DNA of 64,000 nt from a bacterium. Its GTDB lineage: Bacteria; Elusimicrobiota; Elusimicrobia; Elusimicrobiales; UBA9959. Shown in pieces: positions 43,381-59,900 of the stretch (positions are counted from its first letter, which is position 1; each line of letters starts with the position of its first letter). A program made the translations under genes and the position numbers. The stretch covers positions 25,460 through 89,459 of the forward strand of contig JAJZRA010000001.1 of the NCBI GenBank assembly GCA_021847485.1, in the 5' to 3' direction. The notes under the pieces were generated by a model, which was not told where the DNA came from, made no database searches, and saw only the letters and a program-made list of their open reading frames with translations.

Positions 43381-46300
43381 GTGCGCAAGACCTACCCCGT
43401 CCTCGGCCACTCGATGCGCTTCGCGCTGGAGCCCGGCGACGCCGTGGAGGCCGAGCCCTGCCCGCCGGAGGAGTTGAGGGCGGGGGAACTGGCTCTGCTG
43501 GTAAAATGGGAAGGCTCCCGCCCCGGCGGCTACGTGGTGCACCGCGTGCTGCTCAACCTGGAGCTGGCCGGCCGCCGCCTGCTGCTGACCAAGGGCGACG
43601 CCAATCTGCTGCCGGACCTCCCTCCGCGGGCGTTCCAGCCGGTGGGCCGGGCCCTGGCCGGCGGGTCCCCGCCCCGCGTCCCGTGGCCCCTCGCCGCGGC
43701 CTATTCCTGGGCGGCCGGCCGCCTGCTCTCGGCCTGCGTCTTCCTGGTTTATTACCTGCTGCGCGCCCTGGCGGCCCTGCCGGCCTTCAGCCGGCCGGCC
43801 GTCAACGCCCTGGCCCTGCTCTGGGAGACACGCGTTTATCCGAGGCTGCCGGCCCTGCTCGCCGCGCCGGTGCGCCTGGCCCCGGCGGCCGCGGCGCGCC
43901 CTCTCGTCCGGAGCGGCCGGCTGGCCGCCGGCGAGACCTGGTCCGGCGAGGTTACCGTGGCCGATTACCTCATTATCCCGCCGGGCGTCGCCGTGACGGT
44001 GCGGCCAGGCACCCGGATCTCCTTCGTCAGGCGGGAGCCCTGGTTCTTTCCCGTGCTGCGCGCCGGGGAGGGGCCGCGCGAACTGGACAGCCGCCTGGCC
44101 AAGATCCTGGTCTACGGCGAGTTGCGCGCGGAGGGGGGCGCCGGGGCCCCGGTCGTCATGGGCGGGCCCTCCTTCGGCGGCCTGCACGCGCTGGGCGGGG
44201 GCCGCATCTCGCTCTCCGGCTGTTCTCTGGAAAACTCCGGCGGCGCGGCCCTGAGCGCCTGGGACCATTCCCTGGCCGCGGCCTCGCGCTGCTCGTTCGC
44301 CTCCTGCGCTCGCGGCGCCGAGGCCTTCGGCTCCGGCGCCCTGTCGCTGGACGCCTGCTCCTTCGGGGCGCCGGCCGGCCCGGCCGCGCGCGCCTGCGAC
44401 GGGGCCTCGCTGCTGCTTTCCCGCTGCGCGGTCTCCGCCGGCGGCGGCCCGGCCGTAGAGCTCTCGGGTTCGGCTTTCGCCGGGCTCTCCGGCCTTTCGG
44501 TCTCGGACTGCGCCGGCGGCCTTTCCGCCTCGGGCGGGGCCGCGGTCCTGTTGAGGGGCTGCGCTTTCTCGGGCTGCTCAGGTCAGGCCGCGGAAGCCGG
44601 CGACGGCGCCTCTTTCTCCGCCGTCGCCTGTTCCTTCTCCCGTGGCGGCGCCGGCCTGGCCGTCCGGGGGCGGGCCCGCGTTAGGCTGGAAGCCTGCTCC
44701 TTCTCCGCCAACCGCGGCCCCGCCGTCAGGCTCTGCGGCCCCGCCGCCCTTCGCGTCCGGGGTTGCGCCTTCGCGGGCGGGGGGAGCGGCATCGAGGGCG
44801 CGGGCAGGCTTTCGGCGGACATCGAGGGATCGTCTTTCGTCTCGGCCGGAGGCCCGGCCCTGCGTTTCGAACGACCTGCCCGGGTGGAGGCCTCCTCGCT
44901 GACCATTTCCGACTGCCGCGCGGGACTGGTGCTGTCGGGGGCGGCGGCGGCCGTCTGCCGCGGCCTGCGAGTAGAGAGTACCGCGGGCCCCGCCCTGCTG
45001 GCGGAGGACTGCCGGGACCTGCGCGTTACCGGCGCGTCCTTCTCCGGCTGCTCCTCCGGAACCGTCCTCTCCGGTATCACCGCGGCTTCGCTGAGCGGCT
45101 GCTCTTTCTCCGGCGGGGCCGGCGCGGGCTGCGCCGTCTCCGGCCCCGCCCGCGCCCGGCTGACGGGCTGCGGTTTCTCCGGCGGCGGGCTGAAGCTCTC
45201 CGGCGCAGCGGAAGTCTCCGGAGAGGACTGCTCCTTCTCAGGCCGGACGGGCCCGGCCGTGCAGGCCTGCGGGGCGGCCGCCCTGGCGCTGAGCCGGGCC
45301 TCTTTCTCGTCCGCCGGCCCGGCCGCGGCCGCGTGGGACTCGGCCTCGCTTTCCCTGACGGGCGCGCGCGTCTCGTCGGGAGGGGGGCCGGCCCTGGCCG
45401 TCTCGGGCCGGGCCTCGCTGGCCTGCTCCTCCTGCGCCGTCTCCGCCGTCTCCGACGCGGTCGGCGTCTCCGGCGGCGCCCGCGCGCTGCTCGAGGGCAG
45501 CCGCCTCTCCTCGGCCGGCGGCGCCGCGCTGAACCTGGGGTCCGGCTCGGCTGCGGCGCTGGGCTGCGAGCTGAACGGCCGCGGCGGCGTTCTGGCGACC
45601 GGCGGAGAATTGCGGCTCGAGGATTCCCGCGTGAACGCCTCGGCTTACGGGATAGACTCCTCGGCCGCCGTGTCCGTCAGCGGGACCAGCGTCCGCGGCG
45701 GCGCGGAGGGGGGAGCCAGGCTGACCGGGCCGGGTTCAGTTCGCGGGCTGTCCGTAGAGGCCGCTCCCTATCCCGGCATTTCAGCCGGGCCCGAAGTGGA
45801 CGTCTCCGGCGCCGTCTATAACGGCCGGCCTTGGAGCCGTCCCGCCGCCCCGGCGCGCGGTCCGGCCGCCAGGCGCCTGCTCTTCTCCTTCGCCGCGGCC
45901 ACGGCGGGGCTGCCCGTCCTCTCCTCCGTTTACCGGCTGATCTACGCCGCCGCCGCGCGGCTGGCCCCCGCGCTGCTAGGCGTGCGCGGTCTGCGCGCCG
46001 TCTATCTCTACCGCGGGATGACCGAGCGGGACTGGGTCCCGGGGCTGAGCGACATGGACCTGGCTTTCGTCCTCGACGCGCTCCCGCCGGCGGAGGACCG
46101 GCGCGCCTACGCGGGCCTCAAGACCCGCCTTTCCGGCTTCAGGACGCTCTTCCCTTTCACCGGCGAGGCTCTGGTGGCCTCTTTCGGAGAGCTCGCGGCC
46201 TTCCTGCCCGCCTGGGGGATAAAAGGCTCGGAGTTCCGGCGCACGGCCCGCCTGCTGGCGGGCGAGCCGCTCCCGGCGGGGCCGGCCGTCCCCGGCCCGG

Positions 46301-47277
46301 GGGATGACACCGAAGCTTTCTATTCCTACACGCTGCTGATGCGCCACTTTTTCGAGAGCGGGGCGCCTGAGAACTTCCTGCGCCGCAACTGCCTTAAGAA
46401 CCTGGCGGATATCCGCCGCTACCTGGACGTCTCGTCCCCGGAGCGCGGCTCGCGCGGGGCTTACGCGCGGGCGGCCGGCCTGCCGCTGGACGCTTACTCC
46501 GGTTTTCCGCGGGAGCGCAGCGCCTTCCTGGCCTTCTCGGCCCTGCACGCGGCCGCGGCCGGGCGCGCCCGCTGGCGCCCGGCCGGCGAAGCCGCCGCCG
46601 GAGGCGGCGGCTGGTTCAACGTTCCGGTCTTCGAGGCCGCCTGCCGCGGCCTGGCCCGCCGCGCCGGCTTCGACGTGGGGGTCGCGCTGGATTCCCTCTA
46701 CCGGGTCTATGTGGTGCTTCCCGACGAGCGGGCCGGGGACGAAGCGGCTTTCCGCAGCGCCTGCGCGGCCCTGGCCGCGGCGCGCGCCTCCGAGCCGGCG
46801 CTGGGAGCCTCGCCGCTGGTCCTTACGGCCTCCTCCTTCGCTCTGCTGGCCCGCCTGCCCTATCTCAACAATCCGCTGCTCTGGGCCGACGCCGCGGCCG
46901 CCCCGGCCGGCTCCGGCCCGGAGGACGGCGGCGTGCGCACCTTCGGCCTGCCGGGCCTGCCGGAACCGCCCGGTCCGGCGGAGCTGCGCGCGGCCGCCGT
47001 CTACGCGGCGCGCCATTTCCGCGCGTCGTGGCGTTCGCTGTGGGGGGAGATGCCGCCGCACTATTTCTATACCCGCGTCTGCGGCCTGGAACTGCTGCTG
47101 CGGACCGGGGCCAGCCCGGCCTTCAGCGGCCCGGAGGGCCTGCGGGCGGCGCTGGCCGCCGCGGGGGGCGCCGCCCCGGACTGGCGCGCCTTCCTGGCCG
47201 GCGGGGCGGGGGCGGAGAATTACGAACATATAGCGGCGCGGGCCGCGGCGCTGGGGAGGCTGGCCGATGCGGCCTGA
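43381..47277 (+). CDS. Giant fusion: S26B-type peptidase domain + parallel beta-helix + nucleotidyltransferase-like domain
   Basis: N-term LGHSMRFALEPGD...VVHRVLL...LTKGDANLLPD; middle ~22-aa GCSFSG-type repeats after SGEVTVADYLIIPPGVAVTVRPGTRISF; C-term YRGMTERDWVPGLSDMDLAFVLD. Confidence 0.8.
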   Translation: MRKTYPVLGHSMRFALEPGDAVEAEPCPPEELRAGELALLVKWEGSRPGGYVVHRVLLNLELAGRRLLLTKGDANLLPDLPPRAFQPVGRALAGGSPPRVPWPLAAAYSWAAGRLLSACVFLVYYLLRALAALPAFSRPAVNALALLWETRVYPRLPALLAAPVRLAPAAAARPLVRSGRLAAGETWSGEVTVADYLIIPPGVAVTVRPGTRISFVRREPWFFPVLRAGEGPRELDSRLAKILVYGELRAEGGAGAPVVMGGPSFGGLHALGGGRISLSGCSLENSGGAALSAWDHSLAAASRCSFASCARGAEAFGSGALSLDACSFGAPAGPAARACDGASLLLSRCAVSAGGGPAVELSGSAFAGLSGLSVSDCAGGLSASGGAAVLLRGCAFSGCSGQAAEAGDGASFSAVACSFSRGGAGLAVRGRARVRLEACSFSANRGPAVRLCGPAALRVRGCAFAGGGSGIEGAGRLSADIEGSSFVSAGGPALRFERPARVEASSLTISDCRAGLVLSGAAAAVCRGLRVESTAGPALLAEDCRDLRVTGASFSGCSSGTVLSGITAASLSGCSFSGGAGAGCAVSGPARARLTGCGFSGGGLKLSGAAEVSGEDCSFSGRTGPAVQACGAAALALSRASFSSAGPAAAAWDSASLSLTGARVSSGGGPALAVSGRASLACSSCAVSAVSDAVGVSGGARALLEGSRLSSAGGAALNLGSGSAAALGCELNGRGGVLATGGELRLEDSRVNASAYGIDSSAAVSVSGTSVRGGAEGGARLTGPGSVRGLSVEAAPYPGISAGPEVDVSGAVYNGRPWSRPAAPARGPAARRLLFSFAAATAGLPVLSSVYRLIYAAAARLAPALLGVRGLRAVYLYRGMTERDWVPGLSDMDLAFVLDALPPAEDRRAYAGLKTRLSGFRTLFPFTGEALVASFGELAAFLPAWGIKGSEFRRTARLLAGEPLPAGPAVPGPGDDTEAFYSYTLLMRHFFESGAPENFLRRNCLKNLADIRRYLDVSSPERGSRGAYARAAGLPLDAYSGFPRERSAFLAFSALHAAAAGRARWRPAGEAAAGGGGWFNVPVFEAACRGLARRAGFDVGVALDSLYRVYVVLPDERAGDEAAFRSACAALAAARASEPALGASPLVLTASSFALLARLPYLNNPLLWADAAAAPAGSGPEDGGVRTFGLPGLPEPPGPAELRAAAVYAARHFRASWRSLWGEMPPHYFYTRVCGLELLLRTGASPAFSGPEGLRAALAAAGGAAPDWRAFLAGGAGAENYEHIAARAAALGRLADAA
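44180..45830 (+). repeat. Degenerate coding repeat region (beta-helix coils)
   Basis: Recurrent LxGCSFSGGxGxAV-like units, ~22 aa period, GC-rich. Confidence 0.75.
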
Positions 47278-48283
47278 CCCGGTCATAAGCGCGCTCATCA
47301 TCACGCGGGGGCGGGAGCCCCTGCTGCGCGATTGCCTGGCGGCCCTGCGCGCCGCCGGTCCGGCGGAGGTCATCGTGGGCGTGAACGGGGAGGATCCCGC
47401 CTCGCTGCGCGCGGCCGCGGATTTCCCGGGGACCCGGGCCGCGGCGCTGCCGCGGATGTGCCGCGGCGAGGCCCGCAACGCGCTGGCCGCGCTGGCCTCG
47501 GGGCGCTGGCTCTGCTTTCTCGACGACGACACCGTGCCTCCGCCGGGCTATTTCGACAGGCTAGCGGCGCTGATCGCCGCCGACCCCGGGGCCGCCGTCT
47601 TCGGCGGGGGGCAGCTGCCGTCGCCGCGCGCCGGGGCCTTCGAGACGGCCGCCTACTGGACGCTGGCCTCGCGCTGGGGTTCCGGCCCCTTCGCCGAGCG
47701 CTTCCGCGCCGCCGAAGGCACCCGCCGGGCGGGGCCCGAAAAGTTCATCCTCTGCAACCTGGCGCTGGACCGGGAATTCCTGCGGCGCGAAGGGCTCGCT
47801 TTCGAGGGACACCTGACCAGCGCCGAGGAGAACCTGCTGCTCAACCGCATGGCCGCCGCCGGCGCCGCCATGGCGCTCAGCGGGGACCTGAACCTCGTGC
47901 ACCGGCGCCGCGCCGCGCCCGGGGCTTTCCTGCGGCAGACCTTCTCCTGCGCCCGGGGGCGGGCCCAGATAACCCTGCTCAGCCGGCGGGGTTTCCACCC
48001 GTTCACGCTGCTGCCCGCGTGCGGCCTGCTGGCCGCCGCCGCGCTGGCCGTCCTGCGGCCGGGGTGGCTGGCGGCCGCGGTCTGCGGCTACGCCGCCTGC
48101 TGCGCCGCCGCGGCGGCCCTTTCCGGCGCTCCGGCCCGTCTGAAGCCCGGCGTGGCGGCGCTGTTCCCGGCCGTCCACCTGGCGTACGCGGCGGGGCTGC
48201 TGTGGGGGGCGGGCGAAGCCGCCGCGGATAAGGTTTTCAGCGCGGGCCGCCCGGCCCGCTGCAGCTGCGAAGGAAATCCCTGA
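47267..48283 (+). CDS. Glycosyltransferase family 2 with C-terminal TM helices
   Basis: ISALIITRGREPLLRDCLAAL; CFLDDDTVPPPGYF; SAEENLLLNRM. Confidence 0.88.
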   Translation: MRPDPVISALIITRGREPLLRDCLAALRAAGPAEVIVGVNGEDPASLRAAADFPGTRAAALPRMCRGEARNALAALASGRWLCFLDDDTVPPPGYFDRLAALIAADPGAAVFGGGQLPSPRAGAFETAAYWTLASRWGSGPFAERFRAAEGTRRAGPEKFILCNLALDREFLRREGLAFEGHLTSAEENLLLNRMAAAGAAMALSGDLNLVHRRRAAPGAFLRQTFSCARGRAQITLLSRRGFHPFTLLPACGLLAAAALAVLRPGWLAAAVCGYAACCAAAAALSGAPARLKPGVAALFPAVHLAYAAGLLWGAGEAAADKVFSAGRPARCSCEGNP

Positions 48284-49238
48284 GCGCGTCCGCGCTCCGC
48301 TCCGGCCCGGGGCCGGTAACGAACGTCCAGAAAGAAGCGTCCCTGATCAGGCCGGCGGCGGCGCGCAGGCGGGAGAGCAGTATGCCCGCTTTGGCCGCCG
48401 CGTCGGCGGGGGAAGGCCTCAGGAAATATTCCGCCATCTGCGGCACCCCGTGCCCGGCCACGAGCGCCGCCGCCAGCGCGGCCGCGGCGGGGGCCGACCC
48501 GCACCTCTCGATGCGCGGGGCCGGGCCCCGGCGCAGCAGGAAAACGTGGGCCGGCCGGACCGGGCCGGAGGCCAGGCGCCCGGCGGCGCCGGCTGGAACT
48601 AGGCGCTTCGGCGGATAATGGCGGCGGCGCAGGAGTTCCGCGCCGGGGAAGCGGGCAAGGTGGGGGCTGCCCCCGTCAAGCCCCACGCGCAGGGGGAAAG
48701 GCAGCAGGCCGGCCGGGGAGAGCAGCGGCGTGTCGTCGGAGATCAGCGCGAAGGCCGGGTCCCGCAGAAGCTCCAGCAGCAGCGTGGTCTTGCCCGTGCC
48801 CTGAGACCCGCAGAAGACAAGCCCCCCGGCCGCCGAGGCCAGCGCGCCCGCGTGCAGCCGGTGTAGCCCCCTCCGGTCCAGCCATTCGCCCGCGCGCGAG
48901 AGGACCAGCAGGTAAAGCAATTCCCGCAGCAGGTGCGGTTCCCCGGCGGAGACCCGGCATTTGCCGGAAACGTAATCCAGTTCGCAGAGGGCCCCTTCGG
49001 GGTACCAGACTTTCCTCGTCCCGGGAGGGGAGGCCAGCACCGTCCATTTGGCGCGGGCGAACAGCGCGCGGCCGGGCGGGCGGGGGACGGGGGCGAGCTC
49101 GGCCAGTACGTCCACGTCGGGAGGATCGCTCCCGGGGGCGGCGAAGGCCGCGAGGTCGGCGGCGAGGCCGGCCACCGCGGCGGCATCGCCGGCCGCGCGC
49201 ACCCGGCAGCCGTGCACCAACAGGCAGGCCCGCGTCAC
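48237..49238 (-). CDS. HPr kinase-related protein (HprK-like)
   Basis: LHAGALASAAGGLVFCGSQGTGKTTLLLELLRDPAFALISDDTPLL; GTG start overlaps upstream TGA (GTGA). Track ORF is N-extended. Confidence 0.8.
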   Translation of the reverse strand: MTRACLLVHGCRVRAAGDAAAVAGLAADLAAFAAPGSDPPDVDVLAELAPVPRPPGRALFARAKWTVLASPPGTRKVWYPEGALCELDYVSGKCRVSAGEPHLLRELLYLLVLSRAGEWLDRRGLHRLHAGALASAAGGLVFCGSQGTGKTTLLLELLRDPAFALISDDTPLLSPAGLLPFPLRVGLDGGSPHLARFPGAELLRRRHYPPKRLVPAGAAGRLASGPVRPAHVFLLRRGPAPRIERCGSAPAAAALAAALVAGHGVPQMAEYFLRPSPADAAAKAGILLSRLRAAAGLIRDASFWTFVTGPGPERSADALRDFLRSCSGPGGPR

Positions 49239-50146
49239 GCGCCCTCCCTGAGGCGGCGCAGCGTCCGCCTGAAGTTGTCCGGCGTGTCGGTGCGCAGCAC
49301 CTCGGCGCCGGGCGGGAGGCGGCAGATGAACTCGGTGAGCATCGCGCCGGGGGCCATCTCGACGAAGAGCGAGGCCCCCGCGGCGGCCATGGCCTCCACC
49401 GATTCGCACCACTTGACCCTGTGGTTGGCCCCGCGCAGCAGCGCGCGGCGCAGGCCGGCGCCGTCGAGATGCGGCCTGGCGTCGCAGTTGGCGTAGACCG
49501 GGAAGGCCGGGTCCGCGAAGGGGCGGGAGTCGAAATAGGGGCGCAGCTCCGCGGCGTAGGCGTCGTAGGCGGAGGTGTGGAAGGCGTTGGGCTCGGGCGA
49601 GACGGTCAGCCGGTGGCGGCGCCCGGCGAGCGCCCGCTTCAGCCTGCCCACCGCGCCGGGCGAGACGCCGACGAAGCCTATCGAGGGGCGGGAGAAATAG
49701 GTGATGAGCTCGCAGAAATCCCCGGCGGAGCGCAGCGCCGCGGCCGCCGCCTGCAGGGCCCGGCGCGGCACGCCGTAGACCGTGGCCAGCCGCGTCGGGA
49801 AGCGCAGGTTGTGGGGCTGGCCGCGGAGCAGCATCTCGCGGGCCGTGCCCAGGCAGTCCTCGGCGGAGAAGACGCCGGCGAAGGCGCAGGCGCTGAACTC
49901 GCCCATGCTGCGCCCGGCGGCCATGTCCGCCGCGGCGCCGCCGGCGCGCAGCGCGCGGGCCACGGCGAGCGACAGGTAGAGCGTGACCTCTATGAAGACG
50001 CTGGGATGGGGGGTGTCGGGAGGCGGGAACAGCAGGGACCTGTCCCCTTCGAACATGATCCGGCGCAGGTCGAACGGGCTGGCGGGGGCCAGCCGGTCCA
50101 GCTCCCTCCTGACCGCCGGGACGCCGCGGTAGAGGTCCAGGCCCAT
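49235..50146 (-). CDS. FabD-like acyltransferase; conserved N-terminus FLFPGSGTQYPG lies upstream of the only in-frame start
   Basis: GRSMGEFSACAFAG (GxSxG), NAFHTSAYD, FVEMAPGAMLTEF; frame open upstream to about 50250 without ATG/GTG/TTG. Confidence 0.78.
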   Translation of the reverse strand: MGLDLYRGVPAVRRELDRLAPASPFDLRRIMFEGDRSLLFPPPDTPHPSVFIEVTLYLSLAVARALRAGGAAADMAAGRSMGEFSACAFAGVFSAEDCLGTAREMLLRGQPHNLRFPTRLATVYGVPRRALQAAAAALRSAGDFCELITYFSRPSIGFVGVSPGAVGRLKRALAGRRHRLTVSPEPNAFHTSAYDAYAAELRPYFDSRPFADPAFPVYANCDARPHLDGAGLRRALLRGANHRVKWCESVEAMAAAGASLFVEMAPGAMLTEFICRLPPGAEVLRTDTPDNFRRTLRRLREGA

Positions 50147-50201
50147 GCCGGGGTACTGCGTACCCGAGCCGGGGAAGAGGAAGGCCGTCCGGGGGCGCGC
50201 G

Positions 50202-50306
50202 CTACGGCTTGAAGGCCGACGCGACTTCGCTGATCTTACCGTGGGATTTCACCTGCGGCTTCTGGTATTTCTTCTGCTTCTGCTGGGGTTTCTTCGGCTG
50301 TTTCAT
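50202..50306 (-). CDS. Candidate RiPP precursor/leader peptide, 34 aa (not in ORF track)
   Basis: MKQPKKPQQKQKKYQKPQVKSHGKISEVASAFKP*; ATGA overlap with PqqD-like stop; YxxPxVxxxG motif. Confidence 0.6.
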   Translation of the reverse strand: MKQPKKPQQKQKKYQKPQVKSHGKISEVASAFKP

Positions 50307-50584
50307 TCCGCAGCCTCCGGCGAGAGGATTTTGAGTCTGGAAAGGTCTTCGATGAAAGCGGCCACGTCGGCGGCCGCCTGCGCGGGCGGGATGCCGTACT
50401 CGGCGGCGAGGGCCTCGGCTATCTTGGCCGGCCGGCGGCCCGCGGCGAGCAGCTCCCAGACGAAAGTGCCGGTCCCGTTGGCGGAATAGTACTCGGAGGT
50501 CCGGAGGTCCAGGATGACGGCCTCGTCCCCGGTCCTGCGCCAGGCGATAGTCTTCGGTACGGGGCTTTTCTTGTCCGCTGCCAT
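50303..50584 (-). CDS. PqqD-like peptide-binding (RRE) protein
   Basis: AVILDLRTSEYYSANGTGTFVWELLAAGRRPAKIAEALAAEYGIPPAQAAADVAAFIEDLSRLKIL. Confidence 0.88.
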   Translation of the reverse strand: MAADKKSPVPKTIAWRRTGDEAVILDLRTSEYYSANGTGTFVWELLAAGRRPAKIAEALAAEYGIPPAQAAADVAAFIEDLSRLKILSPEAAE

Positions 50585-50590
50585 GGGGCT

Positions 50591-50596
50591 ATTCTA
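50591..50596 (-). promoter_or_regulatory. -10 element TAGAAT, 6 nt before pqqD-like ATG
   Basis: TAGAAT-N6-ATG, overlaps radical SAM stop codon. Confidence 0.5.
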
Positions 50597-51502
50597 GCAA
50601 ACTCGCGCGGGCGCGTGGCACGGGAAAATGCCGGGGCGCGTCCGTTCGCCGCCGAAGAAGCGCCGGAGGCCGCGGTCCGCCCGGCCGAGCGCGCGCCCGG
50701 AGTAGGGGCAGCTCCTGACCGAAAGGTCCGCGTCCACGAACAGGATCTCGCCGGCGGCGGCCGCGCAGTCCCGGCGCCCGGGCCGCACGCAGCCGCGCGA
50801 GAAACCGTCCGGCGCGGCGGCGGCCAGCGCGGCGGCGAGGCGCCTGGAAGGGGCGGCCTTGCCGCCGGAGCGCGGGGAATACATGACCGTCCTGGCGCCG
50901 TGCGCGCCGAGGCGCCGCGCCAGGGCCAGCAGGCGGCGGACCCCGGCGGCGCCGGGCCGCGCCGAGAAGAGGCAGGAGGAGACGTGCACGAAGAGCCCGG
51001 CGCCGAGCGCGGCGGCCACGGCGGCTTCGGCCTTGCGGAAGGAGCCGGGCCCGGCCAGCGCGTCGTGGCGGCTCCGCTCGGCGGAGTGCAGGCTGATCAT
51101 CGCCAGCGAGAGGCCCGCCGCCGCGAGTTCCGCCGCGCGGGCGGCCCCGAGGCGCTGGCCGTTGGTGTCGAGCTGGGTGAAGAGGCCGAGCCGGGAGGCC
51201 AGCCGCACGGCGGCGTCCAGCCCGGGGTAGAGCAGCGGCTCGCCGCCGAAGAAGGCGACGCGCGGTATCCCGGCCGCGGCGGCTTCCTTCAGGAGGCGGC
51301 GCAGGCGCGCGGGAGGGATGTCGGGGCCGGCGGGGCCGCCGCGGTACTTGCAGTGGCGGCACGCGAGGTCGCAGCGCGACGTCAGCCCGACGTAGAGCGT
51401 GTCCGGCGTGCCGGGCGGCAGGCCGGTGAGGCGGCGTTTGAGCACGGCCATGTCCAGGAGCGCGCGGGGCGAGAGGCGGAGTTTACCTGCTGCGGAGGCC
51501 AT
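50594..51502 (-). CDS. Radical SAM protein with C-terminal Cys cluster (SPASM/Twitch-like)
   Basis: LTSRCDLACRHCKYRG (CxxxCxxC), FFGGEPLLYPG, C-term CVRPGRRDC...CPYSG. Confidence 0.88.
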   Translation of the reverse strand: MASAAGKLRLSPRALLDMAVLKRRLTGLPPGTPDTLYVGLTSRCDLACRHCKYRGGPAGPDIPPARLRRLLKEAAAAGIPRVAFFGGEPLLYPGLDAAVRLASRLGLFTQLDTNGQRLGAARAAELAAAGLSLAMISLHSAERSRHDALAGPGSFRKAEAAVAAALGAGLFVHVSSCLFSARPGAAGVRRLLALARRLGAHGARTVMYSPRSGGKAAPSRRLAAALAAAAPDGFSRGCVRPGRRDCAAAAGEILFVDADLSVRSCPYSGRALGRADRGLRRFFGGERTRPGIFPCHAPARVC

Positions 51503-51524: not shown

Positions 51525-52286
51525 ATGCTGGTGATTAAGGCCGGCGGCAGCGTGCTGACCCGCAAGGGGGACGTACCGGTCTTCGACCGGGCGGCCGCCG
51601 CGCGCCTGGCCGCGGAGCTCGCGCTGCTCCGGGAGCCCTTCATCCTGACGCACGGCACCGGCTCTTTCGGCAAACCTCCGGCCGTGCGCTACGGCTACCT
51701 CGGCGGAAAGATAGCGCCGGGCGCGGCCCCGGTGGAGCGCATCAACGCCTCGCTGCTGGAGCTGCACCGCGCCTTCCTCGCCGAGCTGCTGGCGGCGGGG
51801 GTGCGGGCCGCGAGCCTCCCCGGTCCGGAAAATTTCGTCCTCAGGGCCGGGCGCCCGGTACCGGCGGACCCGGCCGCCCTGGCCGGCCTGCTCGGCCGCG
51901 GCGCGGCGCCGGTGGTGTCCAGCGGCATCTTCCCCGACGGGGCCGGCGGGGGGACGGTAGTCTCCAGCGACGCCCTCGCGGCCGGGCTGGCCCGCCTGTT
52001 CCGCCCCAGGCTGGCCGTCTTCCTGACCGACTCCGACGGCGTCACCGGCCCCGGCGGAAGACCGCTGCGCGAGGCCGGAGCGCGGGAGCTGCTGCGCGCC
52101 TGCCGGCCGGCGCCGGGCGACGTCAGCGGCGGCATGGCCGGCAAGGCCGCCCAGCTGGCGCGCATCGCCGCCCTCGGGATCCCGGCGGCGGTGACGGACG
52201 GGCGCCGCCGCGGCTGGGGGGCCAGGCTCGCCTCGGGCGCCCTGCCGGGCGGCACCTTCGTCCGGCCCGGCCGAAGGCCGGCTTAA
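51525..52286 (+). CDS. Isopentenyl phosphate kinase-like amino acid kinase family protein
   Basis: MLVIKAGGSVLTRKG, LTHGTGSFGKPPAVRYG, FLTDSDGVTG, DVSGGMAGKAAQL. Confidence 0.75.
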   Translation: MLVIKAGGSVLTRKGDVPVFDRAAAARLAAELALLREPFILTHGTGSFGKPPAVRYGYLGGKIAPGAAPVERINASLLELHRAFLAELLAAGVRAASLPGPENFVLRAGRPVPADPAALAGLLGRGAAPVVSSGIFPDGAGGGTVVSSDALAAGLARLFRPRLAVFLTDSDGVTGPGGRPLREAGARELLRACRPAPGDVSGGMAGKAAQLARIAALGIPAAVTDGRRRGWGARLASGALPGGTFVRPGRRPA

Positions 52287-52313
52287 GATTTGATATCATA
52301 GTCCCCTGTAAAG

Positions 52314-53357
52314 ATGACCACTACCCGATTGTCCCTGAGCGGCCTCTACCGGCTCCCCTGGAGCGTGCCTGACAACATTATCTCGTGGATAGAGCCCACC
52401 AAGAACTGCAATCTCTCCTGCCCCGGCTGCTATTCCCTTAATTCGCCGGGCGCGCACCGGCCCGCGGCCGAGGTCTCGGCGGAGCTGCGCCGCATAGCCG
52501 AAGGGGCCAGGTCCGACGTGCTGGCGATAGGCGGCGGGGAGCCGCTCACCTATCCGGGGCTGACGGAGCTTACGGCGGAGGCTAAGGCCCTCGGCTTCAA
52601 GCCTTTTCTCAACACCAACGGCCTGCTGGCCACGGCGGAGCGCCTGAAGGAGCTTAAGGCCGCCGGCCTGGCCGGCGTAACCTTCCACGTGGACAGCCTG
52701 CAGAACAGGCCCGGCTGGGAAGGCGCCGACGAGGAGAAGCTCAACGCCCTGCGCGCCGGGCTAGGGGCCCTGTGCCGCCCGCTGGGCCTTACCTGCTATT
52801 TCAGCATGACCGTGACCGGCTCCAACCTGCCCGGCGTCCCGGCGGTCCTGCGCTGGGCCAGGGCCAATCCTGCGACGGCGCACATGGCGCTTTTCATCTC
52901 CTACAAGGAACCGGCGGCGGGCGGGACCGCCTCCGCCGGCGCCGAGGCGCCTCTGCCGGAGGTATGGGCCCGGGCCGCGGAGGCCGAGCCGGGCCTCGAG
53001 GCCGCCGGCTACGTCAATTCCGCGCTCAAGTTCTCGAAGGCCAAGTGGCTGGTCTCGCTGGCCGCCGTCTCGCCTTCCGCCGGTGTGCTCGGCTATTTCG
53101 GGCCCCGGGCCCTCGAGGCCCTGCAGGCGGTCCCGCACCTGCTGCGCGGGCGCTATCCCGGCAGCGCCGCCCCGCGCTGGCAGCGGGCGGGGCGCTTGTT
53201 CTCGCTGCTTACGCTCTGGGACCGCGGGGCGCGCCGCGCCGCGCTGCGCGCTTTCCTGGAGCCGGCGGCCTGGACTTCCCCTGTCTGGCTGCAGCCGCTC
53301 GTCTTCATCGAGCCGGACACCCTGGTCAAGGACGGGCGCCCCGTCTTCTTCCTGTGA
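52314..53357 (+). CDS. Radical SAM protein
   Basis: IEPTKNCNLSCPGCYSLN (CxxxCxxC), LAIGGGEPLTYPG, FLNTNGLL. Confidence 0.85.
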   Translation: MTTTRLSLSGLYRLPWSVPDNIISWIEPTKNCNLSCPGCYSLNSPGAHRPAAEVSAELRRIAEGARSDVLAIGGGEPLTYPGLTELTAEAKALGFKPFLNTNGLLATAERLKELKAAGLAGVTFHVDSLQNRPGWEGADEEKLNALRAGLGALCRPLGLTCYFSMTVTGSNLPGVPAVLRWARANPATAHMALFISYKEPAAGGTASAGAEAPLPEVWARAAEAEPGLEAAGYVNSALKFSKAKWLVSLAAVSPSAGVLGYFGPRALEALQAVPHLLRGRYPGSAAPRWQRAGRLFSLLTLWDRGARRAALRAFLEPAAWTSPVWLQPLVFIEPDTLVKDGRPVFFL

Positions 53358-54163
53358 TGGTCCTGCTGGAACGCCTTTCTTCCGCCCGCGCGCAGCTGCC
53401 GCTGCTCGCGCTGCTCTGCTTCCTGTACGCGGCCTCCCTGATGGGCCTGCCGCTCACCGGCGACGCGCTCAGGCTGGGCCTCGCCAATTACGCCTTCATG
53501 CAGCTGGTCTATCTGGCGGACCGGTACTTCGCCCCGGCGGAGGACGCCGCCAACGGCGTGCGCCCGCCGGAGCCGCTGCCGGTGCCGGGCTCGGTCTTCT
53601 TCTTCGCGCTGGCCGCGGCGGCGGCCTATATCGCCTCCTTCCCGCGGCAATGGGTGTTCCCGGCGGCCGGCCTGCTGCTCTTTTTCCTCTATTCCTTCCC
53701 GCCGCTAGGCCGGCTGCGGCTCAAGAACTTCTTCCTGTCCAAGACGCTGATCAACGCCTCGCTCTTCACGGCGGCGGTGACGTTCTCCCCGGCGCTGCTC
53801 AGGTGGGGGGCGGAACCGCCGGTGCTGGCGGCCGTCGCGCGCGCCGCCGCCGGGATGTTCCCCGCGGCCCTCTGCCTGACGGTGCTGCTGGACGTGCGCG
53901 ACGCGGCCGGGGACGCGGCGGCCGGGGTCAGGACGCTGCCGGTTGTCCTGGGGGCCCGCCGGGCTTCGCTGGGCGTAGCGGTACTTGCCGCGGCCGCGGG
54001 CCTGCTGGCCTGGCACGGCGGGTCCCGCTTCGGGACGGCTTTCTACGCGGTCCTCGCGGGGGCTTCGCTCTTCGCGGCGGGGCGTGGCCGGCTCTACTTC
54101 GAGGGCTGCCTGCTGGCGCTCAACCTGCTGGCGGCCTGCGCGCTTTTCGGGGGATGGAGGTAA
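53357..54163 (+). CDS. UbiA-family prenyltransferase
   Basis: Polytopic; LLDVRDAAGDAAAGVRTLPVVLG second motif; first Asp motif divergent (YLADRYFAPAEDAANG). Confidence 0.78.
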   Translation: MVLLERLSSARAQLPLLALLCFLYAASLMGLPLTGDALRLGLANYAFMQLVYLADRYFAPAEDAANGVRPPEPLPVPGSVFFFALAAAAAYIASFPRQWVFPAAGLLLFFLYSFPPLGRLRLKNFFLSKTLINASLFTAAVTFSPALLRWGAEPPVLAAVARAAAGMFPAALCLTVLLDVRDAAGDAAAGVRTLPVVLGARRASLGVAVLAAAAGLLAWHGGSRFGTAFYAVLAGASLFAAGRGRLYFEGCLLALNLLAACALFGGWR

Positions 54164-54164
54164 C

Positions 54165-55193
54165 GTGGCGAAGCTTCACGAGACGTACCGGCTCAGGACG
54201 CGGGAACGGGTCTATGCCAGGATAGCCGCCTGGCTGCGGGCCGAGGCCCGCGGGCTCGAGCCCTCTTTCGCCCGGCAGGTGGCGGACTACCCGCTCAGGC
54301 GCGGCAAGGCCGCGCGGGCCGCCCTGCTGACGCTTTTCTACGGGGCCTGCGGCGGCCGGGACGGGCGCGCCGCCGTCGACGCGGCGGCCGCCTACGAGAT
54401 GCTGGAGTCGTGGGGTATCGGGCGCGACGACATCCTCGACGGGGCGCTGCTGCGCCGCGGGGGCCCGGCGCTGCACGTCAAGTACGGCCTGCCCTCGGCG
54501 CTGAACGCGCTGGACTACCTGCACGTGCTGGTCTTCAAGTTCATCCTGCGCTCGCGGGCCCTCGGCGCCGGGCAGCGGGACGCGCTCTTCGGGCTGTTCG
54601 CCGAGGCTTCGCGCCGGACTCTGGCCGGCCAGCACGAGGATATCCGCAGCCGCGGCCTCCCGCTGGAGCGCCTCACCGAGGCCAAATGCCTAGCCCTGGC
54701 CGGGGGGAAGACGGCCTACTATACCGTCTATTACCCGTGCCTGGCCGGAGCGCTGCTGGCGGGGCGCAAGGAGCCGCCCGCCCTCGCGGACTTCGCCTGG
54801 AGGATCGGGACCGCGTTCCAGCTCATCGACGACGTGCTCGACGCCGAGAACGAAGGCGGCGGGCGCTTCGGCAAGGCGGTGGGCAACGACATCCGCGAGC
54901 GCAAGCGGACGCTGGTCCTCTTGCGCGCCTACCGCGCGGCTTCGCCCGCGGAGCGCGGGTTCCTGCGGCGTCTCTACGAGGATTTTTCCGCCCCGCCGCG
55001 CGAGGCCGACGTCCGCCGGGCGCGCGCGCTGATGCTGCGCCTCGGGGCGCCGGCCGAAGCCAGGCGGACGGCGGAGGGGCTGGCTGCCTCGGCGCTGGAA
55101 CTCTTCGAGCGCCGGCTCGCCCCGGGGCTGCGGCCGCGCGAGGCCGGGATCCTGCGCGGGCTGCTCGGCTTCCTTACCGGGAGGGACCATTAG
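54165..55193 (+). CDS. Polyprenyl diphosphate synthase, both Asp-rich motifs intact
   Basis: GTG start; GRDDILDGALLRRGGPALH and FQLIDDVLDAENEGG. Confidence 0.87.
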   Translation: MAKLHETYRLRTRERVYARIAAWLRAEARGLEPSFARQVADYPLRRGKAARAALLTLFYGACGGRDGRAAVDAAAAYEMLESWGIGRDDILDGALLRRGGPALHVKYGLPSALNALDYLHVLVFKFILRSRALGAGQRDALFGLFAEASRRTLAGQHEDIRSRGLPLERLTEAKCLALAGGKTAYYTVYYPCLAGALLAGRKEPPALADFAWRIGTAFQLIDDVLDAENEGGGRFGKAVGNDIRERKRTLVLLRAYRAASPAERGFLRRLYEDFSAPPREADVRRARALMLRLGAPAEARRTAEGLAASALELFERRLAPGLRPREAGILRGLLGFLTGRDH

Positions 55194-55263
55194 GCGCCCG
55201 TCCGTCCTCCTGCCGGGCTGCCGCTCCCTGGCCCTCGAGGACCGCTGCAGGACGGTCCTGCCT

Positions 55264-56277
55264 TTGATCACGGCGGCGACGCTGGATTCCCTGCCGGCGT
55301 CCTTTCCGGCCGCGTCCTTCCCGGGCGGCGCCGCCCGGGCCGGCGCGGCCGCCGGCAGGCTGCTGCGCCCGCCGGCCAGGCTTTACGTCGGGCGGATGGG
55401 CAAGCGGCTGCGCCCGCTGATAACGGCCGTCGTCCTCGAAGGCCTCGGCCGGCGGCCCGGCCGTTTCGCCGGGGCCCTCGGCGCGATAGAGCTGATGGAG
55501 GCCTCGACCGTCAGCTTCGACGACATCATCGACCATTCCGACGTCCGGCGCGGCGGCCCGGCCACGCACGTCCTTTACGGCCGCGGGCGCGCCTACCTGG
55601 CCTACCAGGCCGCCTATAACTGGGCCTACCGGGCCTTCCTGGACCCGGCCCTGCCGCTGGAACCCCGGCGGCGGGCCGAACTGCTCTCCTCGCTGGCCCG
55701 CGAGATCTTCGCCTACGGCTACGGCCAGGCCTCGGAACTCCGGTGGAGCGCGCGCCGCCGCGCGCCGTCGCCGGGGGAGTACCTGTCGATGACCTGGGAC
55801 AGGATCCGCTTCCTCTCTTTCAACGGGCCGCTGCGCATAGGGGCGCTGCTCGGCGGGGCGCCGCGGGAGGCCCTGCCGCGCTTCGCGGCCGCCGGCTCCT
55901 GGCTCGGCATGGCCTACCACCTGCACGGCGACGAGCTCAACCTGTTCCCGCGCTCCGCGGAGTGGGGCAAGCCCCTCGCCGACGACATCACCGGCGGCCG
56001 GTATACCTTCCTCTACCTGACCGCTATGCGGCTTTCCTCCGCGCCGCGCCGCCGCCTGCTCGCGCGGGCGCTGGGGGACCGCCGGATTTCCGGCGGGGCC
56101 CTTAAAAATGTTATAGATATAGTCCGGGACAGCGGCGCCGTCGCCGAGAACCGCAGGAAGATAGGCGTCTTCCACCGCCGGGCGGCGGCGGCCTTGAAGG
56201 GGCTGCCGCTGGCCGCCGGGAGCCGCCGCCTGCTGCTGGACCTCGCACGTTACATGGCCTATGACAGGACGAAATAG
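55264..56277 (+). CDS. Polyprenyl synthase paralogue, second Asp-rich motif degenerate
   Basis: SFDDIIDHSDVRRGGPATH; second motif replaced by YHLHGDELNLF; TTG start uncertain. Confidence 0.8.
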   Translation: MITAATLDSLPASFPAASFPGGAARAGAAAGRLLRPPARLYVGRMGKRLRPLITAVVLEGLGRRPGRFAGALGAIELMEASTVSFDDIIDHSDVRRGGPATHVLYGRGRAYLAYQAAYNWAYRAFLDPALPLEPRRRAELLSSLAREIFAYGYGQASELRWSARRRAPSPGEYLSMTWDRIRFLSFNGPLRIGALLGGAPREALPRFAAAGSWLGMAYHLHGDELNLFPRSAEWGKPLADDITGGRYTFLYLTAMRLSSAPRRRLLARALGDRRISGGALKNVIDIVRDSGAVAENRRKIGVFHRRAAAALKGLPLAAGSRRLLLDLARYMAYDRTK

Positions 56278-56280
56278 AAT

Positions 56281-56989
56281 GAAGCTTCTCGTCAGCCCCG
56301 CCGACCTGCGCGAGGCCGCCGTGGTCGCGCGGTCCGGCGCCGATATCCTCGACCTCAAGAACCCGGCCGAAGGCTCGCTCGGGGCCAACTTCCCGTGGGT
56401 GCTCGCCGCCGTGATCCGGCGCCTGCGCCGCCCCGGGCTGGAGTTCAGCGCCGCCATAGGCGACCTCGGGTTCCAGCCCGGCACCGCCGCGCTCGCCGCC
56501 CACGCCGCGGCCTCGCTCGGGGCCGACTACGTGAAGGCCGGCCTCTACGGGGTGAAGGACCTGCGCCGCGCGCTGCCGCTGGCCGCCGCCGTGGTGAAGG
56601 GCGTCAGGACCGGGCGTCCCCGCGCCCGGGCCGTGATCGCGGGCTACGCCGACTGGCGCCGTTTCGGCGGCCTGGCCCCGCTGGACCTGGTGCGCGCCGC
56701 CCGCAAGGCCGGCGCCGGTCTGGTGATGCTGGACACGGCGCTCAAGGACGGCCGCTCCCTTTTCGACAATATGACCCACCGCGAACTCGAGCGCTTCCTG
56801 GCAGCGGCCCGGAAGGCCGGGCTGGGCACGGCGCTCGCCGGGTCCGTCAGGGCCGAACACCTGCCCGCGCTGGCCGCGCTGGGGCCCGACATCGTCGGGC
56901 TGCGCGGCGCCGTCTGCCTGGGCGGGGACCGCCGCCGGCGGGTCTGCCCGCGGCGTTTGGCCGAGCTGAGGCGCGCATGCGGCGCTTGA
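56281..56989 (+). CDS. mfnB: (5-formylfuran-3-yl)methyl phosphate synthase-like (UPF0264/MfnB family)
   Basis: MKLLVSPADLREA..GADILDLKNPAEGSLGANFPWV, ADYVKAGLYG, MLDTALKDGRSLFD, ALAGSV, DIVGLRGAVCLGGDR; closely follows archaeal MfnB. Confidence 0.88.
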
Positions 56990-57498
56990 CCCCGCTCTTC
57001 CCCGGGCCCCGCGGCCTGGCCGCCTGGCATAAGGCTTTCCTCGGGCGCGATCCTTTCGGGGGCTGCGGCCCGGCGCCGTCGGCCGCGTTCTTCCGGCCCG
57101 CCGCCCGGCTGTGCCGCCTGCCTTCCCCGGCCGAGAAGCTCCTGCCCCGCTCCCTTCCCGCCGCCGTCAGAAGGGAAGCCGTCATGGCCGTGCGCCTGTG
57201 GCAGGCCTCGCAAAAGGTCACGGAGGACCTCGTCCGGAGCGGCAGGTCCCTGGCCGGCATGGACGCGGACATGACGATGAATTTCGCGATGGCCCTCGGG
57301 AACTACTCCCGCTTCCTGCTTTTTTCCTCGCGCGGGCTGGCGCCGGAGGCGCAGCTGGCGCTGCACCGCGCTTTCGCCGCGGAGATGACCGCCATGCCGG
57401 CCGCGCTGGCCCTGCGCCGGCCGGGGGCGCGCTTCTCGCCCGCCGCTTCCGCCGGGCGCCTGGCCGCCGCCTTCGCGGCACTGGAGGACCGAAGATGA
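56977..57498 (+). CDS. Hypothetical helical protein, 173 aa
   Basis: MRRLTPLFPGPRGLAAWHKAFLG...; overlaps mfnB stop and abuts methyltransferase. Track ORF extends out of phase into mfnB. Confidence 0.6.
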   Translation: MRRLTPLFPGPRGLAAWHKAFLGRDPFGGCGPAPSAAFFRPAARLCRLPSPAEKLLPRSLPAAVRREAVMAVRLWQASQKVTEDLVRSGRSLAGMDADMTMNFAMALGNYSRFLLFSSRGLAPEAQLALHRAFAAEMTAMPAALALRRPGARFSPAASAGRLAAAFAALEDRR

Positions 57499-58334
57499 AG
57501 ACCGACCCCCGCTGGCTGGCCCGGATAGCGGCCCTGTACGACTCCAAGCGCAGGGATTTCAACTGGCGCCTGGCCGCCGACGGGGTTATACACCACCATA
57601 ACGGCCTCGCTTACGGCAAGGCCGCTTTTCTGCGGCGCCTGCGGCGCGCCTCCCCGGAGGGCGCGGACAGGATCATCCACGATTCCGAGACCGCGCTCTC
57701 CCGGCTGGGCTTCCGGTACCTCGGCCGCCCGGCCCCCGGCGCGGTCCTGCTCGACGCGGGCTGCGGCCGCGGCGGTTCCAGCCTGCTGCTCGCCGCGAAA
57801 TATCCGCGCCTGGCGATACGCGGCGTGACGCTGTCCGCCTACCAGGCCGCGGCGGCCCGCGCCGCGGCGAAGGCCCGCGGCCTCGGGGCCCGCGTGCGTT
57901 TCAGCCGGGCGTCCATGCTGGACCTGCCGTTCAAAAAAGGGTCTTTCGACCTGGTCTGGGCCTGCGAATCCACCGAGCACGTGCCCGACCTGCGCGACTT
58001 CTTCCGCGAGGCGGCCCGGGCGGCCCGGCCCGGGGCGCGGCTCGTCGTGATAGCCTGGGTGCTCAACCCGGCGCACCCGCGCGCCGCCGGGTTCGCGGCC
58101 CTGACCGACCGGGCCTACGTTACCCGCGTGCACCCGGAAGAGGAGTACCTCCGGGCGGCGTCCGCGGAGGGCTGGCGGCTGCGCCTGAAAAAGGACCTGA
58201 CCGGCCCGACGGCGGCCTACTGGGCCGGCCGCGCCGCGTTGAAGTCCGGCTCGGGGACCGAAGCCTTCATGGCCCCGGCCTTCGCCTCGCGCGCTCTGCT
58301 CTACCGGTTATATTCTTACGACCTTGTCGAATGA
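57495..58334 (+). CDS. SAM-dependent methyltransferase, prenyl/sterol C-methyltransferase-like
   Basis: VIHHHNGLAYG, LLDAGCGRGGSSLLLA, LDLPFKKGSFDLVWACESTEHVPD. Confidence 0.82.
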   Translation: MKTDPRWLARIAALYDSKRRDFNWRLAADGVIHHHNGLAYGKAAFLRRLRRASPEGADRIIHDSETALSRLGFRYLGRPAPGAVLLDAGCGRGGSSLLLAAKYPRLAIRGVTLSAYQAAAARAAAKARGLGARVRFSRASMLDLPFKKGSFDLVWACESTEHVPDLRDFFREAARAARPGARLVVIAWVLNPAHPRAAGFAALTDRAYVTRVHPEEEYLRAASAEGWRLRLKKDLTGPTAAYWAGRAALKSGSGTEAFMAPAFASRALLYRLYSYDLVE

Positions 58335-59900
58335 CGGCCAGGCCGCGGCCGCGGCCTTGACGGTGTTCAGGTTTATCCTCGCGCAGTCCTCGGGCGGGCC
58401 GTAGGCCCCGCCGAGCACCAGGCAGGCCGGCACGCCGAGCGAGGCCAGCCTGCCGAAGAGGAATTCGTCCCTCTCCCTGAGCCCGGCCTCGGTCAGCGCC
58501 AGGCCTCCCAGCGCGTCCTTCCAGTAGGCGTCCGCCGAACACAGCGCGAAGACGAAGTCAGGCCTGCGGACCCGCAGGAAATCCTCCAGTCCTCTCTTCA
58601 CCGCCTCCAGGTAGCGCGCGTCCCCGCAGCCGGGGGGGATGTCCACGTCCATGGAGGAGCGGACGCGCTCGGCCGGGTAGCCGTCGGCCCGGTGGGCGGA
58701 GAACGTTCCCACGGCCCCGTCGGCGAGGATGAAAGCCGTGCCGTTGCCCTGGTGGGCGTCGAGGTCTATCACAACGGGGCGCGCGGCCAGGCCTTCCTTC
58801 AGCAGGGCGCGCGCCGCCACGGCGAGGTCGTTGACGGGGCAGAAGCCTTCTCCGCGGTCCGGGAAGGCGTGGTGCCCTCCGCCGTGGGGGAAGACCCCGA
58901 GCGTCCGGGAGGCGGCCGCGGCCCTGGCCGCCTCCAGCGTGCCGCCGGCCAGGCGCCAGGCCGCCGGCAGCAGCGCGCGGGAATGAGGCATGGCCAAAGT
59001 CTTCTCTTCTTCGGGCGAGAGGTCGTTGGTTTTCAGCCGCGCGAGCCAGGCCGGCGTGTGGGCCAGCAGCAGCTCTTCGTCGGAGGCCGGCGCGGCCTCC
59101 TTCAGGGCGAAGCCGTCCGCCTTCAGCGCCCCGAGCAGCGCCGGGAAGCGTTCCAGGCCTTCGCGGAAGGAGGAGCCGGGGGCGCGGGAAGGACCGGCTT
59201 CCGGCATACCCGCCGCGGGCCCGAGGTAGGCCGGGCGGCCGCGGTCGAGGCAGAGCGCCGCGTCGGCGAGCGACCGGGCGAGCTCCCCGTCGTGCGTGGC
59301 GAAGACCAGGATGGCCCCCGCGGCCTTCAGAGCGCGCAGCTCGCGCAGGCAGGCGGCGCGGAAGGCGGCGTCGCCCACGGCGAGCGTCTCGTCGAACAGG
59401 TAGAGGCCCGCGCCGGAGCGCAGCGCGGCCATGAAAGGGAGGCGCAGTTTCATGCCGGCCGAAAGCTCGCCGGCCCTGGCGTTGCGCAGGTGCTCGAGGC
59501 CGGCCGCGGCCATGATGCGCTCGGCGGCTTCGGCCGGCGCGCCGGGCACGCCGAAGACGGCGGCGCAGAGGCGCGCGTTCTCCTTGACGCTGAGGCGCTC
59601 CTGCAGCACCGAGGCGAAGCCGAGCAGGCAGGCGCGGCCGCCCGAGAACGAGACCGAGCCGGCCGAAGGCGAGGCGACGCCTGCCAGGACCTTGAGCAGC
59701 GTGGTCTTGCCGGAGCCGTTCGGCCCGCAGACCGCCAGCGCGTCGCCGGGCTCGAGGTCGAAGGAGACCCCGGAGAGCGCCTCGAAGGGCCGGGAGGGGG
59801 AGCTGCCGCTGAAGAAGCGCCGCAGGGCCGACAGGGTGTCCTCGCGCGGCAGCGCGACGCGGTAGGTCTTGGCCAGGCCCTTTACGGAGAGCCCGCTCAC
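58308..59900 (-). CDS. ABC transporter ATPase (TagH/Wzt-like) fused to HDAC11-like deacylase domain
   Basis: GPNGSGKTTLLKVLAG, ELSAGMKLRL, LYLFDETLAVGD; then GGGHHAFPDRGEGFCPVND, VIDLDAHQGNGTAF, LGGLALTEAGLRERDEFLF; GTG start overlaps permease stop. Confidence 0.85.
   Translation of the reverse strand: MSGLSVKGLAKTYRVALPREDTLSALRRFFSGSSPSRPFEALSGVSFDLEPGDALAVCGPNGSGKTTLLKVLAGVASPSAGSVSFSGGRACLLGFASVLQERLSVKENARLCAAVFGVPGAPAEAAERIMAAAGLEHLRNARAGELSAGMKLRLPFMAALRSGAGLYLFDETLAVGDAAFRAACLRELRALKAAGAILVFATHDGELARSLADAALCLDRGRPAYLGPAAGMPEAGPSRAPGSSFREGLERFPALLGALKADGFALKEAAPASDEELLLAHTPAWLARLKTNDLSPEEEKTLAMPHSRALLPAAWRLAGGTLEAARAAAASRTLGVFPHGGGHHAFPDRGEGFCPVNDLAVAARALLKEGLAARPVVIDLDAHQGNGTAFILADGAVGTFSAHRADGYPAERVRSSMDVDIPPGCGDARYLEAVKRGLEDFLRVRRPDFVFALCSADAYWKDALGGLALTEAGLRERDEFLFGRLASLGVPACLVLGGAYGPPEDCARINLNTVKAAAAAWPSFDKVVRI

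Follow-up and report, generated by a model that had tools for sequence, protein, structure and literature searches.

Five minus-strand genes in the 64,000-nucleotide stretch of Elusimicrobia DNA analysed here (the window), at positions 48237-51502, probably constitute a peptide modification pathway resembling those for ribosomally synthesized and post-translationally modified peptides (RiPPs) and dependent on a RiPP recognition element (RRE). The open reading frames (ORFs) and their family matches confirm the content proposed by an earlier, sequence-only reading of this DNA, namely a radical S-adenosylmethionine (SAM) enzyme, a PqqD-type RRE, a 34-aa peptide, a FabD-like protein and an HprK-like kinase. 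A short precursor gene thus lies beside the genes for an RRE and for modifying enzymes and is conserved with them as a unit, which is the usual mark of an RRE-dependent RiPP locus. It is most likely that the peptide, short and of fixed sequence, is phosphorylated and probably also glycosylated, and that in the clade of the window it is radical-modified and acylated as well. The Elusimicrobia are a group known almost entirely from DNA, and the source genome of the window is an assembly of 122 contigs that is 83% complete.

Conservation of the peptide and its cassette

The peptide is 68-82% identical to 12 copies in relatives, and 13 sequences align without gaps, with a variable stretch of 12 residues followed by the near-invariant region KYxKPx[ILV]xxHGK[IL]S[ED]VASAFKP. 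The ratio of nonsynonymous to synonymous substitution rates (dN/dS) falls from 0.37 at codons 2-12 to 0.055 at codons 13-25 and 0.011 at codons 26-34. The peptide is under strong purifying selection, and its conservation goes beyond chance. Conservation of the peptide ORF beside PqqD in relatives had been set as a condition beforehand by the sequence-only reading, and 16 further genomes, from 4 genera, keep the peptide there. In 12/12 relatives examined, the FabD-like gene begins inside the peptide ORF (at GTG, once at ATG) and always in the +1 frame relative to it, so conservation of the tail as a by-product of the overlap was considered; this explanation was rejected because in one genome (G157) the two genes do not overlap, yet the tail is the same, which indicates that selection acts on the peptide itself. 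A programmed +1 frameshift fusing peptide and FabD was likewise rejected, given the start codon within the peptide ORF in all 12 relatives, although the window itself remains odd in having GCG where that start lies (50206-50230) and no in-frame ATG, GTG or TTG before FPGSGTQ.

The C-terminal tail varies with the enzymes encoded beside it. In genomes with the FabD-like gene it reads ASAFKP, the exception being G153 (L023:463-778, GWA2_51_34), where two tandem peptides share the leader and end in GIIVRE and GADDDPVR. Tails from genomes lacking the gene are ALARSY, ALAHSY, AAFSALY, AAFSLLY, ASFRTFY, ASFSYTY and RAFQLLY, and the final residue is always Tyr. This Tyr end was read in 12/12 peptides from genomes in which no adjacent FabD-like gene was found (in deep genomes, within the fetched loci) and in none of the FabD-bearing ones; two members of the same genus without the gene (G013 and G025) also carry it. 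Such co-variation is as expected if the tail is the modified part, shared ancestry being the alternative reason. Upstream of the tail, the YxxPxL-type motif matches the leader motif of lasso peptides, which in the precursor BsfA occupies positions -17 to -12 (PMC10368454); that register would leave only some four residues (AFKP) after the leader. Models of lasso leaders matched the relatives' peptides weakly, below cut-off.

The order radical SAM-PqqD-peptide-FabD-like-HprK-like, with a family 2 glycosyltransferase (GT2) gene and a gene for a three-part protein convergent to it, was recovered by tblastn in 12 of 16 relatives, 11 from the same genus and one from another, counting one genome (G030) whose radical SAM gene runs off the contig end. 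Further members of the cassette are G156, G157, G031 (split across contigs) and G153 (a variant arrangement). Overall, the gene order recurs in 11 further congeneric genomes and, within the same Elusimicrobia family, in 2 genomes from other genera, so that the proposed co-occurrence in fixed order holds; the delimitation to five genes is incomplete, as the GT2 gene and the peptidase/beta-helix/nucleotidyltransferase gene also belong. Among 32 congeneric genomes, the peptide and a strong FabD-like match occur in exactly the same 13, and strong HprK matches in those 13 plus G013 and G025. The three-part protein was present in 9/9 peptide-bearing congeners of the 23 surveyed and strongly matched in 0/14 of the others, one of which gave a weak match. 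This shared distribution suggests that the seven genes behave as a unit.

A scan of genome contigs returned only close Elusimicrobia relatives, and the distribution described here covers the Elusimicrobiota. Across this phylum, the kinase profile matches strongly in 55/342 genomes, with a GT2 gene next to the kinase gene in most of the loci fetched. A widened peptide profile finds 34 genomes, 34/34 of them within the 55 (hypergeometric P about 1e-32) and, outside the genus, 14/14 with the kinase (P about 4e-14), both values being inflated by the relatedness of the genomes. In the fetched loci outside the clade of the window, the core consists of peptide, kinase and glycosyltransferases with no FabD-like gene, as in the operons peptide-GT4-GT2-kinase (G214), PqqD-GT9-GT4-GT2-kinase-peptide (G230) and peptide-GT4-kinase (G228).

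Predicted functions of the encoded proteins

The RRE scores 62.8 bits against the lasso_PqqD model NF033530 (cut-off 70), and its nearest solved structure is that of the lasso protein TbiB1 (5v1u, E 7e-19); PqqD RREs are known peptide chaperones. In an alignment of 12 sequences, seven cysteines of the radical SAM enzyme are invariant, those of the motif C44xxxC48xxC51 and the further C238, C246, C265 and C295, which bears out the earlier description of a CxxxCxxC enzyme with C-terminal cysteines. Its nearest NCBIfam models are GeoRSP, PqqE and MftC-type, all under cut-off.

Sequence matches for the kinase are weak (TIGR04355, E 2e-4), and a search against solved structures yielded P-loop noise and, at E 0.1, PEPCK, but nothing else. 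Compared by Foldseek, the predicted model (pLDDT 78) matches PEPCK (prob 1.00, E 6e-8) and the HPr kinase 1ko7 (E 6e-5), and a library of viral folds yielded nothing beyond viral PEPCK; the model thereby favours the HPr-kinase-like P-loop protein that had been proposed. Residues H129, G144, G149, K150, T151, D168 and D169 are invariant or nearly so, with Gly 147 and D168 varying in a few relatives. Kinases of lasso precursors carry an H-G-G-G-K-S-D-D motif (PMC10368454), and the present protein has both the corresponding H-G-G-G-K-S/T-D-D motif and the predicted HprK/PEPCK fold. For the GT2 protein, the best NCBIfam match is the mycofactocin enzyme MftF (TIGR03965; E 5e-12 for the window protein and 1e-17 and 5e-19 for those of relatives, none of them reaching the cut-off). 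The three-part protein has an N-terminal domain matching TIGR02228 at 29.3 bits, with the Ser (GHSM) and His (HRV) motifs kept in relatives, a middle part matching Beta_helix (E 2.5e-30), and a nucleotidyltransferase-like domain whose model resembles AadA (Foldseek prob 0.97, E 0.02), a modest match that is consistent with the fold.

The FabD-like protein is a second copy, as the genome also has a housekeeping FabD. It matches TIGR00128 at 100.7 bits (E 1e-28) without reaching the cut-off of 260.9, and the profile of its family matches malonyl transacylases in the PDB at E 9e-42. The catalytic residues Q11, S94 and H204 are invariant in the family. Arg117 of Escherichia coli FabD is the malonate-binding arginine, and the equivalent column, located through an alignment with FabD structures of the PDB, contains R, L, K, N or E across 13 sequences; without conservation of this residue, malonyl is not the expected substrate.

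Gene layout and neighbouring genes

The coordinates are collected in Table 1. It had been suggested that ATGA and GTGA overlaps join most of the genes; the ATGA overlap of PqqD with the peptide and the GTGA overlap of the FabD-like with the HprK-like gene are real, whereas the radical SAM and PqqD genes are separated by a 9-bp gap. The HprK-like gene starts at GTG 49238, the start at 49412 in the ORF list being too early, and the listed start of the FabD-like gene (50146) is too late.

Table 1. Positions in the window of the cassette genes and an associated gene.
Feature	Position	Strand	Basis
Radical SAM enzyme; CxxxCxxC and four invariant cysteines in the C-terminal part (twitch/SPASM-like auxiliary cluster)	50594..51502	-	Pfam PF04055 E 1.6e-20
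PqqD-family RRE (peptide-binding chaperone), lasso-B1 type	50303..50584	-	PF05402 E 5.8e-20; NF033530; TbiB1 5v1u
34-aa peptide MKQPKKPQQKQKKYQKPQVKSHGKISEVASAFKP; variable Lys-rich N-terminus, YxxPxV leader motif, invariant SxVASAFKP tail	50202..50306	-	Conservation, dN/dS
FabD-like acyltransferase; start codon uncertain in the window genome	49235..50188 (about)	-	TIGR00128, PDB FabD profile match
HprK/PEPCK-fold P-loop kinase	48237..49238	-	Predicted model and Foldseek
GT2 glycosyltransferase, convergent with the five-gene operon	47267..48283	+	PF00535 E 1.7e-11
Three-part protein, 1298 residues; signal-peptidase-like, right-handed beta-helix and nucleotidyltransferase-fold parts	43381..47277	+	TIGR02228, Beta_helix, Foldseek
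C-terminal nucleotidyltransferase-like domain of the three-part protein, RGMxxxxWxPxLSDMDLA	45814..47277	+	Alignment, structure, Foldseek
Isopentenyl-phosphate-kinase-like gene, associated, non-core	51525..52286	+	NF040647 and distribution

The isopentenyl-phosphate-kinase-like gene scores 86.8 bits against NF040647 (cut-off 120) and occurs in 6/9 cassette genomes and 0/14 others; its absence from two near-complete genomes with the cassette is the reason for regarding it as associated rather than core. Nothing relevant on such kinases in the Elusimicrobia was found in the open-access literature. In several genomes it is accompanied by UbiA, two polyprenyl synthases and a 4-(hydroxymethyl)-2-furancarboxaldehyde-phosphate (4-HFC-P) synthase. 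In the window, the 4-HFC-P synthase (an MfnB-type furan enzyme; PF04476, E 2e-75) occupies 56279-58334, and the adjoining 51525-56277 encodes, besides the kinase-like protein, UbiA, the two polyprenyl synthases and a geranyl-diphosphate C-methyltransferase-like protein; 51525-58334 is possibly a furan/terpenoid pathway. A fusion of an ABC transporter ATPase with a domain of the histone deacetylase family follows at 58308-59900, adjoining ABC-2 permease, radical SAM and GT4 genes, and relatives carry a gene of this family that is equal in length. Another genome (G002; L039, L189) holds lasso-like or SynChlorMet-like loci with a ScmA-like peptide (E 5e-4), PqqD, HprK-like, Transglut_core3 and asparagine-synthase-like genes.

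Proposed pathway and alternatives

Taken together, these data allow a model in which the PqqD protein would bind the YxKPx[ILV] leader and present a short C-terminal tail, roughly S30-A-F-K-P34, to the enzymes. The HprK-like kinase may phosphorylate the peptide at a serine (S30 or S26), while the tail could receive a carbon-centred modification from the radical SAM enzyme. The FabD-like enzyme may transfer a non-malonyl acyl group from coenzyme A (CoA) or a carrier via Ser94 onto the peptide, or may trim such a group. The GT2 protein and the nucleotidyltransferase domain would attach a sugar, perhaps to the phosphate, as happens in pseudomycoidin, and release of the tail may fall to the S26-like domain of the three-part protein. 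The radical SAM step and the acyl transfer would thus be additions, in the clade of the window, to a kinase/glycosyltransferase pathway. The invariance of the short tail points to a product of fixed function, and the product may accordingly be a short peptide of fixed structure (a cofactor, signal or envelope component), not a diversifying antibiotic. The sequence-only reading had described a RiPP-like or surface-linked system combining radical SAM, kinase and acyl transfer; the conserved operon of peptide, RRE and enzymes supports its frame, and acyl transfer to the peptide stays conjectural, the malonyl-binding residue not being conserved.

Several points weigh against this model. The modification chemistry is deduced from sequence and fold, and in sequence the kinase has only a weak relationship to peptide kinases that have been characterised; alternatively, the FabD-like protein might act as a hydrolase. 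A tail of only about 4-9 residues makes the core uncertain. No peptide was detected in 21/55 kinase-positive genomes, and relatedness inflates the P values given above. In deep lineages, moreover, the kinase and GT2 genes also stand among polysaccharide-type genes (GT4, GT9, ABC-2 exporters) and could act on a glycan.

This last point leads to a scenario of cell-envelope glycan or glycolipid biosynthesis, in which the HprK-like kinase and GT2 protein would act on a sugar-lipid, with the peptide and PqqD serving as regulator or assembly factor. It would account for the many GT2, GT4, GT9, ABC-2 exporter, polyprenyl synthase and UbiA genes in the neighbourhood. However, the chaperone role of PqqD RREs is directed at peptides, every genome with a peptide of this family also has the kinase, and the leader of the peptide is of lasso type, so that this scenario appears unlikely. 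It is also conceivable, if rather improbable, that the peptide is a carrier or scaffold, held by the RRE while a small molecule is built on its tail, loaded with an acyl group by the FabD-like enzyme as onto an acyl carrier protein (ACP), and later relieved of the product by cleavage. Enzymes of the FabD fold normally load a carrier, the tail is very short and invariant, and in G153 a PaaK-type, flexirubin-FlxY-like acyl-CoA ligase gene lies between the radical SAM and FabD-like genes. However, the peptide has no phosphopantetheine-type motif, the five-gene operon has no condensing enzyme, and the same leader and kinase are kept in lineages without the FabD-like gene.

An intact or decayed lasso peptide cluster would share the lasso-type RRE and leader and, as in pseudomycoidin, the kinase and nucleotidyltransferase, but is highly improbable here. 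Transglut_core3, the lasso B2 protease, was not found over cut-off in 36/37 genomes searched and had no match in the source genome; no asparagine-synthetase-like cyclase is among the locus genes, the source genome giving only a marginal fragment match elsewhere. The lasso cluster was therefore rejected; the tail also lacks the length for ring closure at residue 7-9, and strong purifying selection argues against decay. Returning to RRE-dependent modification, it may tentatively be suggested that the loci represent a new RiPP class of Elusimicrobiota, with very short peptides, a lasso-type leader without a lasso, a dedicated HprK-fold peptide kinase and glycosyltransferases, in which peptide acylation by a FabD-fold enzyme was acquired in one clade, AFKP replacing an ancestral Tyr-ended tail, the invariant product being cofactor-like or envelope-linked. 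If so, this would be the first case known to us of a FabD-fold enzyme working in a pathway of RiPP type, and the exchange of tails between clades that have the FabD-like gene and clades that lack it would offer a direct handle on the residues that each enzyme modifies.

Comparison with known systems

No description of this gene combination, or of Elusimicrobia RiPPs, was found in the open-access literature, which excludes most subscription journals. The HPr-rel-A cassette likewise combines PqqD, an HprK-like protein and a nucleotidyltransferase-like protein, but the present cassette adds a radical SAM enzyme, a peptide, a FabD-like protein and a GT2 protein, and the suggested filing near HPr-rel-A did not survive, TIGR04352 scoring 16.8 bits (cut-off 200) and TIGR04353 20.1 (cut-off 35); membership was thus rejected. 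Mycofactocin (MftA/B/C/F) shares a short precursor, a PqqD-like RRE, a radical SAM enzyme and an MftF-matching GT2, and the relatives' peptides end in Tyr; unlike mycofactocin, the cassette has a kinase and a FabD-like protein, and the peptide of the window clade ends in AFKP, while the Mft models fall far below cut-off on the window proteins (TIGR03965 45.4 vs 280; TIGR03962 48.1 vs 265). With FabD, malonyl-CoA:ACP transacylase, the FabD-like protein shares fold family, catalytic Ser and His and oxyanion Gln; it differs in the Arg117 equivalent and in having a peptide, not an ACP, as operon partner. A second cassette in the same genus and family (L179-L185) encodes a 44-47-aa peptide ending ALACGKC...CKTLKKFS, PqqD, a short HprK-like protein, an S24/S26-like protease and a radical SAM enzyme; it has these and the leader style in common with the first and differs in its longer, Cys-containing core (47-aa ALACGKC peptide) and in lacking a FabD-like gene.

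The closest likeness is to the phosphorylated and phosphoglycosylated lasso systems (paeninodin, pseudomycoidin, BsfA/BsfK/BsfB1), which share a YxxPxL-type leader, a PqqD-type B1 RRE, an HprK-like kinase with the H-G-G-G-K-S/T-D-D motif and a nucleotidyltransferase-fold protein (PMC10368454, PMC8498205). BsfA/BsfK/BsfB1 combine the YxxPxL leader with a kinase and RRE (PMC10368454), and in pseudomycoidin a kinase and a nucleotidyltransferase bring about phosphoglycosylation (PMC8498205). Unlike these, the cassette has neither B2 protease nor lasso cyclase, its tail is about 4-9 residues long, and a radical SAM and a FabD-like enzyme are added. We infer a RiPP-type pathway built from the lasso toolkit that is itself no lasso cluster and, by the NCBIfam models, no HPr-rel-A cassette; if true, bacteria throughout this mostly uncultured phylum employ leader, RRE, kinase and nucleotidyltransferase without forming lassos.

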